From Bacteroidales bacterium (GTDB lineage: Bacteria; Bacteroidota; Bacteroidia; Bacteroidales; Muribaculaceae): DNA of 64,000 nt. How positions within the stretch are numbered: the stretch's first letter is position 1; each line of letters begins with the position of its first letter. The DNA lies in NCBI GenBank assembly GCA_014800525.1, contig JAAVFV010000009.1:1-64000 (forward strand). Reading direction: 5' to 3'. The notes under the pieces are model-generated. The model made no database searches, had not been told where the DNA came from, and saw only the letters and a program-made list of their open reading frames with translations. The translations under genes were made by a program, and so were the position numbers. Shown here one piece after another: positions 7,943-23,123 of the stretch.

Positions 7943-9406
7943 ATGAAAAATTACGACAAACTGATTTTTGAGGTTTCAAAACCGGGCCGTAAGGGCTATG
8001 AACTTCCTGCGGCTAAGCTTGAGGCAGACGGACTCAAGGGTATTCCCGCAGATCTGCTTCGCAAGAAAGCTCCGGAACTTCCGGAGGTGAGCGAGCTTGA
8101 TGTGGTTCGTCATTATACGAATCTTTCGAATAAGAACTTCGGAGTCGACACCGGTTTCTACCCTTTGGGCAGCTGCACGATGAAGTACAATCCGAAGATC
8201 AATGAGGAGCTGGCTGCCATGCCTGAATTTGCGGCTCTCCATCCGGCCCAGGATGAGGAATCGCTCCAGGGTGCCCTCGAACTCTATTATAATCTCCAGA
8301 AGGCATTGAGCAATATCGCCGGACTCGCCGAGTTCACTCTCAATCCGTATGCCGGTGCACATGGTGAGCTTACGGGTCTGATGGTGATGCGTCAGTATCA
8401 TAAGAGCCGTGGCGACCATAAGCGCACCAAGGTGATTGTTCCCGATACGGCTCACGGCACAAATCCGGCTTCCGCCATGGTGGCCGGTCTGGAAGTGGTG
8501 GAAGTGAAATCCAAGCCTAACGGGTCGATCGATGTGGAGGATCTCAAACCATTGCTCGATGATACCGTTGCCGGAATCATGATGACCAATCCCAATACAG
8601 TCGGTATGTTTGAGACCGATATCGTGGAGATTGCTGATCTTGTGCATAAAGCCGGAGGTCTTCTCTATTACGATGGAGCGAATCTGAATCCGATGTTAGG
8701 TAAGGTCCGTCCCGGGGATATGGGCTTTGATATCATGCATATCAACCTTCATAAGACATTCTCCACTCCTCATGGTGGTGGCGGCCCGGGTTCGGGTCCG
8801 GTCGGTGTGGCTGCACATCTTGTCGATCTTCTGCCCAATCCGAGAGTGGTGAAAGATGCGGATGGTAAATTCCATATTCAGACTAATGATAAATCACTGG
8901 GAAGCATTTCATCTTTCCTCGGCAATTTCGGAGTGATGATGAAGGCTTATGCCTATATTCTCTCTCTGGGTAAGGAGAATATACGTCTTGTCGGCCCGAT
9001 GGCTACATTGAATGCCAATTATATCAAGGAAAATCTTAAGGATGATTTCCTTCTCCCGATTGAGGGTGCATGCAAGCATGAGTTTGTATTTGATGGTCTG
9101 AAGGATAAGTCGACAGGAGTGACCACGCTCAATGTTGCGAAGCGTCTGCTTGATTATGGATTCCATTCTCCGACAATCTATTTCCCGCTGCTCTTCCACG
9201 AGGCTCTGATGATCGAGCCTACCGAGACCGAGAGTAAGGAGACTCTGGATGAGTTTATCGAGGTGATGCATAAGGTTGCAAAAGAGGCACGCGAGAATCC
9301 GGAAGTAGTGAAGGGTGCTCCACACACCACTCCTATCTCACATCCTGATGAAACCACAGCCGCCAAGAAGCCTATCCTTTCGTATAAGGCAATGAAGCAG
9401 GCATAA
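7943..9406 (+). CDS. gcvPB: Glycine dehydrogenase (decarboxylating) subunit 2
   Basis: 487 aa; PLP lysine context MHINLHKTFSTPHGGGGPGSGPVGV. Confidence 0.97.
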   Translation: MKNYDKLIFEVSKPGRKGYELPAAKLEADGLKGIPADLLRKKAPELPEVSELDVVRHYTNLSNKNFGVDTGFYPLGSCTMKYNPKINEELAAMPEFAALHPAQDEESLQGALELYYNLQKALSNIAGLAEFTLNPYAGAHGELTGLMVMRQYHKSRGDHKRTKVIVPDTAHGTNPASAMVAGLEVVEVKSKPNGSIDVEDLKPLLDDTVAGIMMTNPNTVGMFETDIVEIADLVHKAGGLLYYDGANLNPMLGKVRPGDMGFDIMHINLHKTFSTPHGGGGPGSGPVGVAAHLVDLLPNPRVVKDADGKFHIQTNDKSLGSISSFLGNFGVMMKAYAYILSLGKENIRLVGPMATLNANYIKENLKDDFLLPIEGACKHEFVFDGLKDKSTGVTTLNVAKRLLDYGFHSPTIYFPLLFHEALMIEPTETESKETLDEFIEVMHKVAKEARENPEVVKGAPHTTPISHPDETTAAKKPILSYKAMKQA

Positions 9407-9426
9407 ATAGATAAATATAACAGAAG

Positions 9427-9455
9427 AGTAGCTGCCCGATTGAGCAGCTACTTTT
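9427..9455 (+). terminator. Hairpin plus T-run between gcvPB and lpd
   Basis: AGTAGCTGC-CCGATTGA-GCAGCTACTTTT. Confidence 0.65.
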
Positions 9456-9474
9456 CATTAACAATTATATAGAT

Positions 9475-10815
9475 ATGCATTCTGATATCATTATAATAGG
9501 AGCCGGTCCGGGGGGATATGAGACTGCGCTTCATGCTGCCAGGGAGGGGAAGAAGGTGACTCTTTTCAATGGTAACCAATTGGGAGGAACCTGCCTTAAC
9601 GAAGGATGTATCCCCACGAAATGTCTTTGTCGGGACGCTGAGATTGTGGCCACCTTCAAGGAGGCCGATCGCTTCGGCATCGATGATTTCACATTCTCTG
9701 TGGATTATCATAAGATTGCTGACCGCAAGAATGAAGTGGTCGGCAAGCTTCGCGATGGGATTGCCTCAATGATGAAGGCTGCCGGAGTGACGGTGGTGAA
9801 TGCCATGGCTTCGTTTAAGGACGCTTCCACCGTTGTTGCCGGCACAGAGGAATATACGGCAGATAATTTCATCATTGCCACCGGCAGTGTCTCTCGTTCG
9901 CTGCCTATTCCGGGTCATGATCTGCCGGAAGTGATGGATTCGACAGCGATACTCAATATCGATTATATTCCGGAGAGCCTCACCATCATCGGTGGAGGAG
10001 TGATCGGAATGGAATTTGCCTCCATATTTTCCAATCTTGGATCGAAGGTGACGGTAATTGAGTTTATGAAGCAGATTCTGCCTCCATTTGATTTCGATAT
10101 TGCAAAGCGTCTGAAGCAGACCCTATCGAAAAGGGGAGTTGAAATTCTCACCGGCGCGGCCGCTAAGAGCATAGAGAAGACAGAAGAAGGGCTGAAAGTG
10201 ACCTATGAGGCCAAGGGGAAAGAAGGTGTTGTAGAGAGCACGGATCTTCTGATGGCTGTTGGTCGCGCACCCCGTGTTGATGGCCTGAATCTTGAGGCTG
10301 CCGGAGTGGAATATACTCTTAAGGGGATTATAGTCGACGATATGATGCGGACAAATATTCCCAATATCTATGCCATTGGAGATGTCAATGGCCGTATGAT
10401 GTTGGCTCATGTGGCATCTTATCAGGGTCGCCGCGCTTTAAATGTGATTGACGGCAAGGAAGATTCGATCGACTTCAACCTCGTTCCGTCGGCTGTATTC
10501 ACTTTGCCTGAATGCGGAATGGGTGGTCTCACCGAGGAGGAATGTAAGGCCCGGGGTATTACCGTGAGAATCGGCAAGAGTTTCTATCGTGCCAACGGCA
10601 AGGCTCTGGCCATGGGTGAGGATGAAGGATTGTGTAAGCTGATTTTCGAGAAGGATACCGACCGCCTTATCGGGGCTCATATCATGGGGGCTGAGGCAGC
10701 TATTCTGGCACAACAGTGTGTCGATTTCATGAATGCCGGTGCCACAGCCGCTACGATGAGAGATGTGATATTCGGTCATCCCACATTATCAGAAATCATA
10801 CTTGCTGCCCTTTAA
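9475..10815 (+). CDS. lpd: Dihydrolipoyl dehydrogenase
   Basis: 446 aa; GGTCLNEGCIPTKCL redox motif, GGGVIGMEFASIF, dimerisation domain. Confidence 0.95.
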   Translation: MHSDIIIIGAGPGGYETALHAAREGKKVTLFNGNQLGGTCLNEGCIPTKCLCRDAEIVATFKEADRFGIDDFTFSVDYHKIADRKNEVVGKLRDGIASMMKAAGVTVVNAMASFKDASTVVAGTEEYTADNFIIATGSVSRSLPIPGHDLPEVMDSTAILNIDYIPESLTIIGGGVIGMEFASIFSNLGSKVTVIEFMKQILPPFDFDIAKRLKQTLSKRGVEILTGAAAKSIEKTEEGLKVTYEAKGKEGVVESTDLLMAVGRAPRVDGLNLEAAGVEYTLKGIIVDDMMRTNIPNIYAIGDVNGRMMLAHVASYQGRRALNVIDGKEDSIDFNLVPSAVFTLPECGMGGLTEEECKARGITVRIGKSFYRANGKALAMGEDEGLCKLIFEKDTDRLIGAHIMGAEAAILAQQCVDFMNAGATAATMRDVIFGHPTLSEIILAAL

Positions 10816-13098: not shown

Positions 13099-13880
13099 TT
13101 AGCCATTAATGGTTGAAGATCGCAGGACAGAGATCTCTTCCTTTGACAGACCTGTGGCCTGTTCAATGAACTTATCATCCATACCCATCCCAATCAGATT
13201 GCGGGCTACATCATTATGACCTTCGGCACGTTCGGTAGCTGCAATTGCATAGTTATCCCGATAGTTCTTCAGAGATTGATCGTAGGCGTCACGCTGGCTC
13301 CTGGATAGGGCACCCAGGCGAGCCACATGTCCCAGTCGACCGAATATTGGTTCCTGCTTAAATTGCTGTGGTATAGTATTCATGTGTTCGAGATTTTTTA
13401 GGATATATAACCAGCGTTCAAGGGTTGTGACACACTCATCAGCCGTCTTGTGCAACAATGGTAGTTTCAGAAATACCATCCTTACCTTGTCTGAGAATAC
13501 CGTTTTGGTATTCATATTCATCAAACATACGTCTTCCCGTAAGGGTTCATCTGCAAACTCTTTCCAATCGAAGTTCATCAGAAATACACCATAAACCGGG
13601 GTGAGGGAATAATCCCAGGCTTTACCCTTTCTTCCCTGTCTGTAGATATCAGCGGAGGTATAGAACACGGCCCGATCTCGGAAGTGAGTCTGGTAGCGGT
13701 TCTGCATCTCAACGAAAAATTTCTTCCCTGTCGAGGTGGTACAAGTTCTATCGCATCCGCAATACTTCACCCAACAGATCGCTAATGTCTTTGCCTTCAA
13801 TTTTGCCAAAGTCCTCCCATGCATCAACATCAACACCGAGTGCGGAGAAAACCGTGGATGTGAAGTTGGCTACAAGTTGC
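13099..13880 (-). pseudogene. Degraded Rpn/PD-(D/E)XK-type transposase/nuclease family protein
   Basis: Family-like core (FFVEMQNRYQTHFRDRAVFYTSADIYRQGRKG...YGVFLMNF). The N-terminal coding content lies in another frame (MQLVANFTSTVFSALGVDVDAWEDFGKIEGKDISDLLGEVLRMR then TAG). Confidence 0.7.
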
Positions 13881-14083: not shown

Positions 14084-15597
14084 TTAGTTTACCCCATCTT
14101 CTATTAAAAGTCTATGTAACCATGTTAAATGTTTTATACTGTGCCCATTAATCTTTTCTCGTTCATACATTATGATTGTTTTGCCCCAATCAACTAAATG
14201 TCCGTTAAACCCTGCTTTTTTAATAGCAACATTCCGACTAACATTCTTAAGGTATTTGATACAAAAAGATATATCTCATTATTTGAAAGACATTTTAAAG
14301 AAGGATTATTTAGTTTAGGTGTCTTACCATGTAGATAGAGATTTCGGCAATTTATGGATTCGATTTCTTCCTCGAAAAGAGTTATATCACTTTCTTCAAA
14401 TGGGAATGATAACTTTAACGCATTAGGCATTTCATTAAATTTACCAAGTTTAGAACTAAACTTATTCCAAATGGATTTATCAATTTCTACCCCAATACTT
14501 AATGCAAATCTTTTTGTAGATTTCACTATCTTTTCCAATTCATGTTTTATATGTTGCTTTATCTTAGCATTATCAAACATTAGAGGAGTCTGGATTGTAG
14601 ATTTATCCATAAAATAACTAGTAACAGTTTCGATAGCAACAGATGCTAAACTTCCATTAGAGATATTATCTAAGCAGGCTGATTGTGTAACTAAAATACA
14701 ACTTCTCCGAAGTTCTTCGCTATTGTATAATAGTTTGACTAAATTTTCAAATGTCTCAGGCGTAAGAAGTAAATCTTCTTTTTCTATGTTTGAATATAAA
14801 TTATGATCTAAAAGGGGGCGTTTGGAATTAATAGTGGAGTTAAGACACTGGTATTCTATCGCAAATCGTGACTTGGGTACAGACTATCTGCTAATTGAAA
14901 GAATACTATCTGCCATATAATATCCATTTATTAAAGCATACGCAGACCGTATTGATTCTACTAATTTTGAAAAATTACTGTAGGGTACATCACTTTGACT
15001 TTTAATAACAAAATATCCGCAGTCTTCCGAAACTTCTTCAAAATAAAATAAAAATAACTGATTTTGGAGCTTAAGTGAAACAGCATTCTTAAAAACGAAA
15101 TCCTGAGTCTTATTAGTAGTCAAATCGTATATTATTCCCTTATTATCTGGTGAAAAAGTCTTCGGATTATATCTAAATAATACTGTATGCTTCGCATTCT
15201 TTCTATCTTCATCCTCAAATAGAGTCTGAAATCGTCTAATAGTTACAGTTACGTGGATAGGGATTTTTTCATCAGCATTGTATTTAGCTGTAATATTATC
15301 AACATCAGTGGAATTAATAATGATATTGAAGTCGGGTAAATCTTTTCTATTAGGTGGTTTAGGAATTGCTAAAACCGCCGGTTTTGCATAAAAGTCATCA
15401 ATATTAAACCTATCGGATACGTTTTGGGGAATATCAAATTCAACTTGGAATTTACCATTCTCAAGCTGTTTTAGCGTACACTTAAACGCTATATCCGTAT
15501 TTAATATAGCGATAAAAAATGTTTCTTCCCCAGAAGCCAAAATCCCATATAATTTTAGGATAGTCTTATCATCTTGAAATAATGAGTTAGATATCAT
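14084..15597 (-). pseudogene. Third gene of the PLD-helicase/methylase operon, broken by an in-frame TAG and a frameshift
   Basis: ORFs 14884..15597 and 14194..14610 are in the same frame, joined by 92 codons with only one stop (TAG 14884-14886). After a frame change near 14245-14255, coding continues as NVSRNVAIKKAGFNGHLVDWGKTIIMYEREKINGHSIKHLTWLHRLLIEDGVN to TAA at 14084-14086. Confidence 0.75.
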
Positions 15598-15607
15598 ACG
15601 AATTTGT

Positions 15608-18600
15608 TTATTTATATCGTTCGTATTCTTCTTTGATTATGGTTGTTTCGGGATCAATAATTAAGATTTCCTCATAATTAAGTCCGTACATAGAATAGAT
15701 AAGTTTATCTATTTCAATTCGAGCCTCATTCAGAGATGGATTGTTCAAAAGCATTCTGACTAATCCTTCAACTTTTCTAGCTTTCACTGATTCAAAACGA
15801 GGTAATGGCAGTTGTTCATAGAGGTAGGTTTGAATTTCAGGGAACGCTTCTTCTTTTTTAGTAGAGAACTTTTTCTTATAATAGAAATCTACAGCTCTGG
15901 AGTTAAGCCAGCCAACAACGAATTCGCGAGAATATTCACTGTCTGGTTTAATATAAATACCGTAGATATTTTTATTGAACGCAAAATTAGTGTCCTCTCT
16001 TGGCATGGTTGCTGTGAGACTAGAGTCTACACGACGTATATAAATCAAAGGCAACTGAAAGAAATCGGATAATCTGCGATATTCCTTATGCTCAGTAGGT
16101 AAATATGTATTATCCCAATCAATACGGTATTTTGAAGTATCCATACCAATAAGAGCAGGCATACCATTATTTTGCTCTCTAAGGAATTTTTTACCAACTT
16201 CTGCACCTCGCTTCGATAAAGAAATGTTGCGAAGAAGCGTATTATCAGACTTGATTTTATCTAACAAGAAAATTAAATCCTCGTCAAGTCCGATAACCAT
16301 TTCGTAGTTCTCATTGAAAAGACTATATCGAAAGGATAGTTTTGGAAGTCTATCAAAGGATTTTAGTTCTGAATTATACTTGTATACAGGAATACAAACC
16401 GATTTCGGTGATTCTATTGTGAAAATTGTAATAACATTTTCAGTTACTGCATCAAATGGATTGCAAAGAGAAAGTGATAATAAATTTACTTTACTCATAA
16501 AGAATTTCCTCTGTTCTTTATCATCTTTATTTAAAAGGTAGAACTTTGGAGTAATATAACAGACGACCCCCTTATCTTTCGTAAAACGTTCACTGCCTTT
16601 GCAAGTACGTTCAAGAAACATTTTATATAAGTCTGTATTCCAAGAGTAAGTGGGCCATTCACTTTTTTTCGTACCTACATATGGTGGATTTGCTAATACT
16701 ATATCAAATCCACCCTTTACACCAAACATCCATTCGGGATCAAAGTATTCAGCGCTTTTATTTTGATTAAATATATCCCATTCTGTCAGCATGGTGGATT
16801 CAGATTTTGAGAGCATTCCAACAGAAGCAAGTTCTTCTGCAAGCTGCAAACGTGTTTCTTCAAGGCGTTTTTCAAGTTCTTTTTTCCATTTGTGGGATTT
16901 AACACTAAATAAACGGTGGTTAATCCGTTTAAGCTTATCCTTAAGCTGTTTAACAGAGGATACAGTATCACCAAGCGACACATCTCCACTTAAAGAACGT
17001 AAAGAGTCTGCCGCAACAAATTTTGCTTCCAGATTTGGAAGAGGTCGAATTCCATAGTTTTCAGCCGGATTGTCATTACTTTTTTGATCAATAACTAATG
17101 AAATGAAAAATCTCAGCTTCGAAATCTGGATAGCAATAGGTTGAATATCCACGCCGTAGATGCAATTTTCTATTAGATAGAGTTTTCGAGCATAGTCTGG
17201 ACGATTCACCTTATCATTGAAATTTCGCTCAATATCAAGAATAGCCTCTTGTCTCTCATTTTCGGTGGCATTTCGGTACACTTCAGAAGTTTCATCTACA
17301 GCAAGATTAAGAAGCATTTCTTTCCACTGAGTATTATCAGGGTCTATTTTAGTAAGGACATGGACCATTTTTTGCAAAATACCCATTGGGAATGCACCTG
17401 AACCACAAGCGGGGTCAAGTATTTTGCAATTATAGAGCGCCAACATTATACTTTGCTTTTGGTCGGGGGAGAGATTTAATTGTATATCTGAGTAAGAGAG
17501 CAACTTACGATATTCGTTTTCAAGGTCCAATCCAACTGTCCGATTAAGATGTGCGATTAGACTCTCATCCACCATATACTGTACTATAGGACGAGGCGTA
17601 TAGAAAGATCCCGTCTGCTTTCGTGCAGTTTGTTTTGTTTCCGGATTAAAAGCAGCAAGTAGATTTTCAAATACTTTTCCTAACAGTTCGGGATCAAGAG
17701 CAACTTCTTGGTCAAGAGGGGTATTTTCTTCGATAGTAAACTGATACGAATTAAAAATTTTTATCAACCCACGAACTACAATGTTTTTCTGCTTTCTGTC
17801 ATCATATTCTGCCGAAAGATCAGCATGAATATTATCTGAAAAAAACAAATAATCAGGAACACAAAGCTGGTCAATGGATGTTTTTCGTTCAGAAAATCCA
17901 TCCAAATATAAACCTTTAGATTTGCGATCAAGACAATCAAAAAGACCTCCATTGAGGAACGGTACACGGTTACATAACTTAATGAACAGTTCGGGATCTT
18001 TGAATAAATCCCGATAACGCATAAGAACATTTACATCGAATTGGTCTCTTGAAGTCTTGAATCGCCGCTCGGTGAGATCACTTTTCCCTTCCTTTGTAAG
18101 AGGAGTATTAAGAGTAGCGAAAAAAAGGTTCTGAAGGATTCCTCTATAATAGTAGCTCACACGCTGTGTTTCGCTGAATAATCCTTGAGGTTCAATTGGA
18201 TTAAACTCCTTAAGCAACTTATTACCTACAAAATCAGGGTCAAATAATTCTCCTGGAATAAGGTTTCTTTGCTTAAGAAACCAGACAAATATCAAACGAG
18301 TTATCAAACGGATGGTGGCTTCGCTATTATACGTTGTATCATCCGAAGTGGTTGATATATCATTGGGGAAACGTACAACCTTAAGAGCCGCAAAATACCA
18401 GTTTTGTAACTCTCTATAGAAACGTTTGGTTAAGGTTTCACTACTGAATACTTTAAGCCAATGTTTATAAAGTTCGTCGAAAGTCGGATAAGCCTTATCA
18501 CCGAGGGAGTCGAGAATATCAATGTGTCCACGATGAGGATTAACGCAATTTATATCGCGGAGTATAGACACCTTACCAAGCTTTTCACCCTCCATACCAG

Positions 18601-19066
18601 CGCGACTATATTCTGATCGTTCACAGGTGGCAAGCGAAAGTAAATCTCCGTTTTTGATAAAAATAATAACTGGCAACTGTGGAGCCATACGGTTAAAGCC
18701 ACGTGTAAGAGTGGCAAGTTCTCCACGAGTTAGCGAACATCCCTGCTTGATGTCAACCGCAAATATAATCATCGTGTTATATTTGCCGTCAAGCGGTTTC
18801 TCAATATCAAAGTCGGATTGGCGACCCTCAAGGATATTTTCATCAATAGCACCGATAAGATAGGTATTATTGACTTTTTCGACAACCTCTTTCAATGCTT
18901 GTGGCATTGACGATGAAGTGGTGTCGGTATAAAGTTCATGAAACGACAATGGCGTTTTGCTCTGAGATGTATAATGTATTTGAAGATGGGTAAGAATTGC
19001 CTCAGTCGCATCAAACAAGGATTCAGTGATGAATTTATGAAGAACGGTTTTCATTGCCTTATTCAT
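15608..19066 (-). CDS. Eco57I-like N6-adenine DNA methyltransferase of a defence/R-M operon
   Basis: 1152 aa; motif [16 protein letters not shown], motif [28 protein letters not shown]. Confidence 0.88.
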
Positions 19067-22000
19067 TTACAGTAACATACTCCCACACAATCAGGTCAAA
19101 GTTTTCGAGCTTGAATTTATCTTCAAGCAACGAGCCATCGATAGCAGCTGATTTCTTGGTTAACTTATTAGATTTAAGGAGAGCGACAGCCGACGATTTA
19201 GCTTTCTGCGGGATTTGGGTTTTCATCCAATCCTTCATGATTTCAGACAATCGAGCAAAGCGATCGGAGTCTCCGGTTTCAATCCATTGCGGAGCGAATC
19301 GCTCGGCAGACTTATTCTGTCGCAAAAATTCAAGAATTTCTGCGCGATTCAGTTCGTGGTAAATGACGGACTTTGACTTATCGACAGGCTGACACATGAG
19401 ATAGATTTCACGGTATGGCTTATTTGATCCTTCCTCTCGGTGGGGATATCCCACTACACCAATGAGAGATTCTCCCATTGTGTCAAAGATATTATTGTCA
19501 AAAGTAAAGCCGGAGAAAATGCCGTTAGGCATACGACGGAATAATTCTTTGTTCTTCTCAAAATAGTCTATTAAATCTTGGCGGTAGACTTCAAACGAGA
19601 AATCTTTAAGCGACAGTGTTCTCGGTGTTTCAATATCACTTATGGAGTTATTCTGCAATTCTTGGAGCAAGCGATCTGCATTACGATCCTGAAGAGGGTT
19701 ATCCTCGACCATCTTCATAAACTCGTCGTTGAGTTCTTGAGTTTCCGAGCCGACAAGAGTCATAGCCGCCATACGGTTCTGTACCCTCGATTCAAGATGT
19801 AGATAATCTTCAAATGTTTTGGCTGGCCAGAAGTTGACACATTGGATTAACTTGTTCGGAGAACCTATACGATCTATACGCCCAAATCGTTGAATTAGAC
19901 GCACCGGGTTCCAGTGTATATCATAATTAATCTGCATATCCGCATCTTGGAGGTTCTGACCCTCGGAGAGACAGTCTGTAGCAATAAGTATGTCAATCGG
20001 ATCATTAAGGAGTCTGGCATATTTAGGCTCATACTTCAAGACAAGCGAGTGCCAAATATCGTAAGGAACATCCCACTGTTGCTTGTCATCTTTATAAAAA
20101 TCGTTGCGGTTTAATCCGGCTGTTTCGTATAGATCACGCCAGTCAAGTTCTTTATAAAGTTTGCTGTAAGGAGCGAAACGTTGCAAGAGTGAGAAATAGC
20201 CATCCGTGGATTGTGCTCCGGTGGAATAAGAAGTAGAGCCACTTGCAGAAGCAATATTGCTGAATCCACGCTTAACAAGTTCATCGAAGATGAATTTGGC
20301 GGTGTCAGCATATACAGTAAAGATAACTACTTTCTTGTTGGGTTGAAGTTGTTTCTCGCTGAGTATGCGCTCAAGTTCATCAAGTTTTACATCGCGCTCA
20401 ATGTTAGATTCATATTTACGCTGAAAGTCGACAAGACCAAGATAAATAGCATTAAGTTTCTTAATATCCGATTCAAGGGCACGTTGGAAGCCTCCTATAT
20501 TTTTCATATCGGATAGCTTGATGGTTCCCTTACGGAGAGCGAAGAACTCGTCATCGTCTATTTCACCATCTTCTTCCTCGCCATCAAAGAGCGATGGAGC
20601 TAATGAATCAACATTAAGTCCTGCACGGAATTTCTTGACTTTATCAAGAGTGGCTTCGTGTACTTCAAGTACTTTCTTCACTGTACTCATGAGGGAAAAC
20701 CACGAAGATTCAAGACGCTTCATAAAGAGAATACCCATCATCTTGACGAGAAAACGCTCACGGTTAACCTCATCATTCCAACCCTCGGCAGCCGCCGCTT
20801 TTTCCGATTTTTTGCGTGTTTCCTTCATGAAAAGGCTCGGCTGATACGCAGCAAGAAAAAGATCTTCAAATGCTTTATATATCTCTTCTGTAGTTTTGAA
20901 GTTACCGAAATGGTCAACACCCTGATAAACGTTGAGCGGTTTTTCCTTATCTGGAAATCCAAGATTTTCTCCGAGAGTCTTTTCAATCAGATTACGTGTA
21001 CGGGCTACTATGAGTTTGTCTGTAAGATTGAAAAATTTTGGTGGGAGGGTTTTAATAAATCCCCCGATAGTACGGTCAGGATTGTCGCACCACTGAGTAT
21101 ATTTGCGTTGTGCGTCAGTAAAAAGGTATTTAAGCGATTCCACTCCAAAATCATCAGTGTTAAATGCGGTATCAACACCTCGTCCAATAAGATTAAACTG
21201 CCCCTTAACATCGTTAAGTCCGGTATTAATGGGCGTGGCAGACAACATTAGGACTTTAACATCGCGATATTCTTGTCCGGGTTGGTTCCGGACGAGGGAA
21301 GTGAGTAGATCTTGATAACGTGATGATTTTTCATTGCGTAAATTATGGCTTTCATCTATGACGATGAGCACTTTCTTTTGGCGTTGGAGCCACGAGAGTC
21401 GTGCATCGTCGTAACGATTTTCAAGGCGCTCGTTTTGGAAATCAGTATGAAAGCGAACAATGTAGTCGAACTCGTCGGTCTCGAAGCGAGAGCCATTTCG
21501 ACGTTTATATTGTTTCCAGTTGTGTTCGAGTTTTTTAGGACATAATAAAACGGTAGTAAATCCTTGTGTCTGAAAATACTTAATAATAGCAAGAGCCGAG
21601 AATGTCTTGCCAAGGCCTACTGCATCGGCAAGAATTGCACCGTTATACTTACGGAGCATTTTGATTAGAGAAATAACGCCTTTCTGCTGATAGTTAAATA
21701 GCGTCTTCCAAATAGTACTCGTTTGGAGAAGCGACATATCCTGACGATGCTCAATGGAAGCATCAAGATCAAGGTCAGCATTGAAGAGTTCAAAGAGGAT
21801 TTTATAATATATTTCTTCCGGAGTATATTTCCGAAAGAAATCATCAATCTGGCGAATAAAATACTCTTTTACTGAAATGCGCTTACTTTTCGGTTTCTTA
21901 CGATCAATAAGGAAGGTATCAGAGGCTTTATCCCAAACCTCATTGAACCAATCAGAAAGTTCTCGAAAGTCAGCATCCGACCTATCGGCGGTCTTACCCA

Positions 22001-22484
22001 TTGTTAGTTCAATATTAGAAGATGGGCGAAGACCAAGCCCGGAATCAGTTAAATTGCTGCTTCCAGATAGATAAAACCCTTTTAAACGAGAATTGTCAGG
22101 ACGATAAATGTAAACCTTAGCGTGACAAAATGCATTGGTAATCGCTTTACATTTAACAGTATCTCTTAGGAGAAACTTCTTTGCATCTTCTACATATTGC
22201 TCCAAATTAAAAGAAGAGATAATTCCTTCGTCACCACGAAGAAGGTCGATAATCTGTTTTTCATCGTTATTCTCTTTAAGAAGTTCCGATGAAAGTAACC
22301 GATATTCTACATCTTCAGGAATCTCATGATATAACTTGCTTAATGCACGTAGAGTAAAATATCCGGTAACGATATCAAACTTCCCTAACTGTAAGGGTAC
22401 AGCGGCATATTCCTTAATAAAATCCCATACGGTAATTATATTAAGTTCATCGCCATATCTATTCTTTTTATTATCTATGAGCAT
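19059..22484 (-). CDS. PLD-like nuclease domain fused to SNF2-type helicase
   Basis: 1141 aa; N-terminal FCHAKVYIY...[11 protein letters not shown] (PLD/HKD type), Walker [21 protein letters not shown] box, [12 protein letters not shown]-terminal helicase [14 protein letters not shown]; overlaps the methylase start by 8 bp. Confidence 0.88.
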
Positions 22485-22544
22485 TTGGACTCAATAAAGT
22501 TACCATTGACTCCATATGGCGATTTTGTTTAGTTAGTAGGATAA

Positions 22545-22870
22545 AAAGAAAAGCGGGGAGTCTATTGTTACTCGTCCCGCTACCTGAGGCATCTGGCATA
22601 GCCCATCGAAGTAGGATGAGCAACAGACTCCACGCTGTATATGCAGATACCCCAAACCCATCTCAAGCTGATGCTTGAAATGAGCCCGGATAGGTATATA
22701 CATACCCGTGGCGTCTATTGTTACTCTATCCTTGACCTCGATTTGAAAACTGCCAGATTTTCAGGTAGCCAAGAACAAAGCGTCAATATACGCTTTTACT
22801 ATATATGTCTTAGATTTCCCGCTTGCCGTAGCTAAATCTTATGTATTTAGCACCCACAGCGCGGAAGTCT
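22545..22870 (-). ncRNA. Candidate rod-like structured RNA upstream of the PLD-helicase operon
   Basis: Two about-95-nt segments in inverted orientation give a long, nearly continuous duplex with G-U wobbles on the minus strand; AAGCGGG/CCCGCTT closing stem, hairpin CTCATTTCAAGC-ATCA-GCTTGAGATGGG, 3' CCCCGCTTTTCTTTTT. Confidence 0.55.
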
Positions 22871-22875
22871 AACTG

Positions 22876-22907
22876 CAAAATTATAAAAATATATTGAGGT
22901 TGGCAAG
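22876..22907 (-). promoter_or_regulatory. Bacteroidetes-type promoter for the candidate RNA
   Basis: Minus strand TTG (22904-22906), 20-nt spacer, TAATTTTG (22876-22883) matching the -33 TTTG / -7 TAnnTTTG pattern. Confidence 0.5.
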
Positions 22908-23047
22908 AATCTATGCTGAAGAATATATGGATTATTAAAATGATAAGTCTCTAATATCCTAATGAGAGTCTGCATCTTTTGATTACGGTTCCATTTTTTC
23001 TTACCATATACTTCAACTATATAAAACTATATAATATGAATATGCAG

Positions 23048-23079
23048 ATCGGCCGCACCGAATGTTCGGTGCGGCCGAT
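23048..23079. terminator. 15-bp perfect hairpin downstream of glgP
   Basis: ATCGGCCGCACCGAA-TG-TTCGGTGCGGCCGAT. Confidence 0.6.
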
Positions 23080-23123
23080 TTTATGAATGAAGTCGGATGT
23101 TCCAACTTCTATGTTGTCGGGGA

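Follow-up and report, generated by a model that had tools for sequence, protein, structure and literature searches.

The window analysed here, a stretch of 64,000 nucleotides from a Bacteroidales bacterium of the family Muribaculaceae, carries on the minus strand of positions 22545-22907 a structured RNA that is probably (we put the probability at roughly 0.7) a cis-acting transcription attenuator, forming the untranslated 5' leader of an HKD-SNF2/Eco57I operon and belonging to a large family of leader RNAs. What sequence and covariation establish are the individual strands, the fact that certain pairings between them exclude one another, the motifs of promoter and terminator, and a position in front of open reading frames. 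An initial annotation had proposed a structured minus-strand RNA with its own promoter and had taken it either for a 6S-like RNA or for a component or regulator of the neighbouring operon. Sequence, fold and covariation bear out the structured RNA and its promoter and speak for an operon regulator, whereas neither the 6S-like RNA nor the RNA component of a defence system found support.

Predicted transcript, strands and competing folds

The minus strand of this region folds at -147.7 kcal/mol as compared to -95.5 ± 4.6 kcal/mol for dinucleotide shuffles, and none of 100 shuffles reached so low a value. The inverted copies, the apical hairpin, the promoter and the 3' U-tract were each found in the sequence as first described. 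The RNA ends in CCCCGC-TTTTCTTTTT (22553-22543), and the promoter motif TAnnTTTG occurs in the expected 80-nt zone upstream of the RNA in 148 of 177 family members, compared with 14 in a 140-nt control zone. Features beyond the first description are a 20-nt direct repeat at 22554 and 22707 (CGGGGAGTCTATTGTTACTC / CGTGGCGTCTATTGTTACTC), a terminator hairpin formed from the 3' arm and two more copies of the RNA in the same genome. Owing to the direct repeat, the middle segment (22635-22611) has two possible partners, so that the rod is one of two competing folds. On the far side of the promoter, a perfect GC-rich palindrome at 23046-23083, CGGCCGCACCGAATGTTCGGTGCGGCCG, is followed by a T-run and is likely to terminate transcription in the interval that separates glgP from the leader RNA.

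Table 1. Predicted elements of the leader RNA and genes of the operon behind it (positions in the window; z values from permutation tests unless marked otherwise)
Feature	Position	Strand	Evidence or remark
Bacteroidetes-type promoter	22876..22906	minus	TTG 22906-22904, N20, TAATTTTG 22883-22876; read from sequence
Leader RNA, ~320 nt	22869→22543	minus	predicted start 22869 (±3), 3' end in U-tract; fold z -11.35 (shuffles) and homologues
Strand 0 / P0 hairpin, 5' end (GACTTCCGCGCTG...)	22811..22869	minus	can pair with strand 3; covariation z -6.7
Strand 1 (AAAAGCGTATATTGACGCTTTGTTCTTGGC)	22768..22797	minus	pairs with strand 2 or forms local hairpin; z -6.8 and -6.7 with strand 2; structure A helices 1 and 2
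5' loop TCTGGCA	22751..22757	minus	pairs with 3' loop TGCCAGA; extended loops z -37.5
Strand 2 (GGTCAAGGATAGAGTAACAATAGACGCC)	22710..22737	minus	partner strand 1 (putative OFF) or strand 3 (rod, putative ON); z -11.8 with strand 3; rod helices 6 and 7
Apical hairpin, CTCATTTCAAGC/GCTTGAGATGGG subtype	22644..22696	minus	fold; subtype association with HKD-SNF2 and type III methylase operons
Strand 3 (GCGTGGAGTCTGTTGCTCATCCTAC), contested strand	22611..22635	minus	covariation with strands 0, 2 and 4
3' loop TGCCAGA	22592..22598	minus	covariation with 5' loop
Strand 4 (GGGACGAGTAACAATAGACTCCCCGC), terminator 3' arm	22553..22578	minus	z -12.8 with strand 3
Terminator U-tract TTTTCTTTTT	22543..22552	minus	T-run, same site in 174/179 family members
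Strand 5 (GCCATATGGAGTCAATGGT), post-terminator hairpin	22502..22520	minus	loop GGAGTC complementary to strand 4 GACTCC
HKD/PLD-SNF2 helicase, 1141 aa, putatively first controlled gene	19059..22484	minus	PADLOC C3a139 HKD+Snf2, E 1e-73
Eco57I-type (type IIG-like) DNA methylase, 1152 aa, second gene	15608..19066	minus	
237-aa protein, third gene	14884..15597	minus	no family match

Pairings between strands were assessed by alignment-free permutation tests, in which the pairing energy of two strands from the same RNA is set against that of strands from mismatched RNAs, using 79-83 non-redundant members of the family. For the terminator (3:4), the rod (2:3) and 1:2, no permutation reached the observed value (Table 1); in the contact between the 5' and the 3' loop all 6 core pairs show double changes, with 97% paired. 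Part of the covariation signal of the rod, that of the loop-loop helices, fits both folds, and the rod-specific parts, in which strand 2 meets strand 3, are significant alone (z -8.6 and -7.2). Pairings outside the proposed model stayed at |z| <= 2.3. The tests ignore phylogeny, but when the same sequences supplied the negative controls, the values lay around zero; permutation stratified by similarity cluster led to the same result, the stratification being coarse with most sequences in one cluster.

Double changes were counted in a 60-sequence alignment for two named structures, with shuffled and slid-register controls. Of the 67 pairs of structure A, which combines 1:2 and 3:4 with the loop-loop contact, 41 carry such changes (195 cells as compared to 68 in shuffled and 30-75 in slid controls), and structure B, the rod, shows them in 44 of 60 (396 cells, with 122 and 64-98 in the respective controls); the RNA of the initial annotation hence shows strong covariation among its homologues. 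On this evidence, both folds, which exclude each other, are conserved in the RNA family. Their median energies, -108.6 kcal/mol for structure A and -105.4 kcal/mol for the rod, leave out the kissing interaction and protein effects and are nearly equal, as a switch requires. RNAalifold returned weak consensus folds on short sub-alignments because one fold is unable to fit both states, and it is for this reason that permutation tests and pair counts for two structures were used.

Beyond these four strands, the RNA appears to possess two more. The 0:3 pairing covaries (Table 1), with controls between -1.6 and +1.1; one subtype illustrates it with GCAGAAGCC/GGCUUCUGC, another with ACUCACGCCG/CGGCGUGAG. 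Strand 4 also matches the 70 nt 3' of the terminator family-wide (z -9.3, 0 of 1000 permutations; flanking controls -1.0 and -1.6). In the window, this 4:5 match consists only of GACTCC with GGAGTC (22513-22508), the latter exposed as the loop of a short hairpin that precedes the start codon, and would be weak on its own. Pairing of the post-terminator element with strand 2 was not significant in the permutation test (z -1.4) and that with strand 0 was weak (z -2.3). At the loci L116, L104 and L117 the sequence behind the U-tract is complementary to the 3' loop strand as well as to strand 4, for example AAAAACCGACCAAA with TTTGGTCGGTTTTT in L116/L023.

Distribution of the family and the operons behind it

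The two further copies in the genome of the window lie at C8:42749, directly upstream of genes for a KAP-NTPase and two GmrSD-domain proteins, and at C10:30360, upstream of predicted secreted proteins. A nucleotide search detected relatives in 36 of 61 congeners. With R1, a covariance model built on the 5' half of the RNA, matches were obtained in 105 of 111 congeners (1-18 per genome), in 111 of 118 Muribaculaceae genomes covering 26 of 26 sampled genera and in 36 of 295 genomes across Bacteroidales, where occurrence outside Muribaculaceae is patchy, the large covariance-model scans having been run with stricter filters so that their counts are lower bounds. Full R1 matches are present in Heminiphilus faecis, Bacteroides acidifaciens DSM 15896, Paraprevotella xylaniphila, Phocaeicola oris and Xylanibacter rodentium. 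A phylum sample of 395 genomes contained no match outside Bacteroidales; its only two matches were in the window genome and in a second genome of that order. The genomes are MAG-based, open reading frames were called in a simple manner and E-values are roughly calibrated. Plasmid and phage records held no match to the family, and a plasmid- or phage-borne element was accordingly discarded as an explanation. No Rfam family matched the window at gathering scores, weak matches at E up to 10 being at chance level, and literature searches, which covered PMC8040213 without its supplements, did not find the RNA described. At L104, two matches (9388-9490 and 10115-10214) stand in tandem 0.7 kb apart; the second has no recognisable 3' domain and looks like a degenerate copy.

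Where a terminator was present and an open reading frame followed it, the first such frame is co-directional at 59 of 63 loci, at a median of 65 nt past the U-tract, as compared to only 37 of 61 for the upstream gene. Between terminator and reading frame, the promoter-like TAnnTTTG was found at one site in 3565 nt. A co-directional reading frame close behind the RNA and the near-absence of an internal promoter indicate that the RNA is a leader, and the operon should accordingly be expressed only as far as polymerase reads through the terminator. ATG-initiated upstream reading frames over strand 1 are fewer than expected (20 of 65, with 36 ± 4 in shuffles), which makes ribosome stalling on a leader peptide unlikely. 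As the spacing between regions 1 and 2 likewise has no clear frame preference (20/19/28), we rejected leader-peptide attenuation as a general rule.

The operon at 14884-22484, encoding the HKD-SNF2 protein, the Eco57I/type IIG-like methylase and the 237-aa protein, resembles a defence operon of restriction type that has yet to be characterised. A PDDEXK_2 (Rpn-like) transposase-family nuclease is encoded at the far end of the island (13099-13836, minus strand). In a scan of 111 downstream proteins, the first genes (n=59) comprised BspA-type LRR proteins (8), type III methylases (5), Ig-like Big_2 proteins (3), KAP NTPases (2) and HKD-SNF2 helicases (2), with single matches to fimbrillin, AbiGi and a protein kinase; second genes include LRR (7), ResIII (6) and GmrSD (3). 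The RNA family is thus not specific for defence but precedes accessory operons for restriction/defence and for surface proteins (LRR, fimbrillin, Ig-like). An RNA devoted to defence alone was rejected, since surface and other functions occur among the 111 proteins, and no single function common to the downstream genes points to a signal. A link to restriction-type cargo is seen for one subtype: of the 21 members that share the apical CGG(G)CTCATT hairpin of the window RNA, 17 lie upstream of a gene for an HKD-SNF2 protein or a type III methylase, as opposed to 5 of 158 members of other subtypes, while the family as a whole also occurs elsewhere. The loci concerned are related, so that this association reflects descent as much as function. 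At L098, L095 and L094, HKD-SNF2 and/or type III Mod/Res genes together with small accessory genes follow the same subtype, which suggests a composite defence module. HSP70-like proteins with partner genes follow the RNA at L097, L101, L106 and L227 (the partner in L227 is GrpE-like) and, judged by their gene content, constitute a recurring accessory chaperone-like operon.

Proposed mechanism, relation to known systems and alternative readings

Transcription would start at about 22869. In the putative OFF fold, 1:2 and 3:4 would be paired, the 3:4 hairpin and the U-tract would act as intrinsic terminator, and kissing between the 5' loop and the apical loop of the terminator would brace it. In the putative ON fold, strand 3 would be taken by strand 2, as in the rod, or by strand 0; the terminator would then be unable to form, and polymerase would enter an operon for which no other promoter is visible. 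Strand 4, once freed, could pair with strand 5, with the possible effect of stabilising the ON fold or of making the start region accessible; this pairing could not act on the polymerase that made it, which would already have moved on. The assignment of the two folds to ON and OFF in the cell is our interpretation of these pairings, as is an effector on the side of P0 and strand 1 that would tip the balance, the trigger acting on RNA folding directly or via a protein.

The RNA would thus work like a transcription attenuator or the platform of a riboswitch. With trp- and his-type attenuators it shares four strands, of which 1:2 and 3:4, the latter an intrinsic terminator, exclude the antiterminator 2:3 according to covariation and energies, and a position directly before an operon; unlike them, it lacks a leader peptide controlling strand 1, as seen from uORF counts and spacing frames, has strands 0 and 5 in addition, one of them past the terminator, and precedes accessory rather than biosynthetic operons. 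Terminating riboswitches and T-box leaders are likewise 5' leaders with a structured domain, a loop-loop contact, a terminator/antiterminator platform and many copies per genome. Ligand binding aside, the family resembles them as a cis-acting leader with conserved domain and expression platform, but it has no Rfam match, that to the T-box model included, its targets share no common pathway, and neither a ligand candidate nor a conserved pocket for one was found. A metagenomic screen of structured RNAs from the human microbiome lists some Bacteroidetes candidates with terminators of 80-132 nt, the longest candidate of the whole screen being 219 nt (PMC8040213). These Bacteroidetes candidates might be fragments of such leaders; the window RNA is longer than any candidate in the screen. 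We do not class the RNA as a riboswitch, T-box, 6S RNA or NusG-paralogue leader, because the defining features are absent or lie beyond what sequence can tell. It belongs to a large RNA family not filed in Rfam and is most likely an attenuator with trp-like strand logic.

A small RNA acting in trans, be it a 6S-like polymerase decoy or an antisense regulator that merely happens to lie upstream of the operon, is unlikely. With its own promoter and terminator the RNA would be released as a molecule of about 320 nt, its long rod recalls 6S RNA (RF00013) and 6S-Flavo (RF01685), and the 4:5 complementarity could also act in trans. 6S RNA, which binds RNA polymerase and serves as template for product RNAs, is however encoded by a free-standing and usually single-copy gene and acts in trans, whereas this family reaches 18 copies per genome, sits at a fixed place before a co-directional reading frame with no other promoter, and has a terminator hairpin that competes with the rod; moreover, strand 4 matches the downstream element of its own locus, locus by locus, which points to action in cis. 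Nor does any 6S or other Rfam model match: RF00013 was absent from 21 relatives but detected in 5 control genomes, and RF01685 matched neither the relatives nor its own control genomes. Quite improbable, too, is a platform for processive antitermination, in which the leader would recruit a NusG paralogue or act on polymerase and the terminator would serve as first test. EAR and put RNAs are folded leaders that act by processive antitermination via an elongation factor or on the polymerase directly, and leaders of this type suppress distal terminators. Like these RNAs and the UpxY-dependent capsule leaders of Bacteroides, the family would control long operons for accessory or surface functions from within their leader, and UpxY-group NusG paralogues have been reported from Bacteroidales; in the window RNA, though, the switch would consist of competing RNA pairings, and antitermination of this kind would not need covarying, mutually exclusive 2:3 and 3:4.

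We consider it very improbable that the RNA is a functional part of the defence system, serving the HKD-SNF2/methylase proteins as guide, as scaffold or as antitoxin. The bias of the window subtype towards such operons and the copy before KAP and GmrSD genes in the same genome would fit, but the association is confined to the subtype, members of this family also stand before operons for LRR, fimbrillin, Ig-like, HSP70-like and other proteins, and the conserved features suit a switch rather than a single variable guide. Least credible to us is an inverted-repeat DNA element, either a MITE or an anchor for cassette exchange, despite multiple copies, varying cargo and inverted repeats. No sign of a MITE was seen at the window RNA, and compensatory double changes within loci, an orientation fixed relative to the next reading frame, conserved promoter and terminator, strong divergence between copies and absence from plasmid and phage records all argue against it.

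Returning to the attenuator, one may tentatively, and with some doubt, go further and see in it a new class of signal-responsive leader RNA, with an exchange cascade of six strands in which the strand beyond the terminator couples termination to a second gate, and which serves across Muribaculaceae as a shared switch of an accessory regulon for restriction/defence and surface antigens.

Significance for gut Bacteroidales

Annotation pipelines based on Rfam miss this RNA family, as it has no entry there. If our reading is correct, one attenuator, present several times over in most genomes of a family dominant in the mouse gut, times the expression of restriction, other defence and surface proteins, which would explain how accessory operons stay silent or get switched. 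The signal could then be found through a condition that causes read-through of the terminator, and genetic work on gut Bacteroidales would gain a switch that needs no further design. If a single RNA switch governs defence as well as surface variation, this would be of direct consequence for the dynamics between phages and their hosts in the gut.
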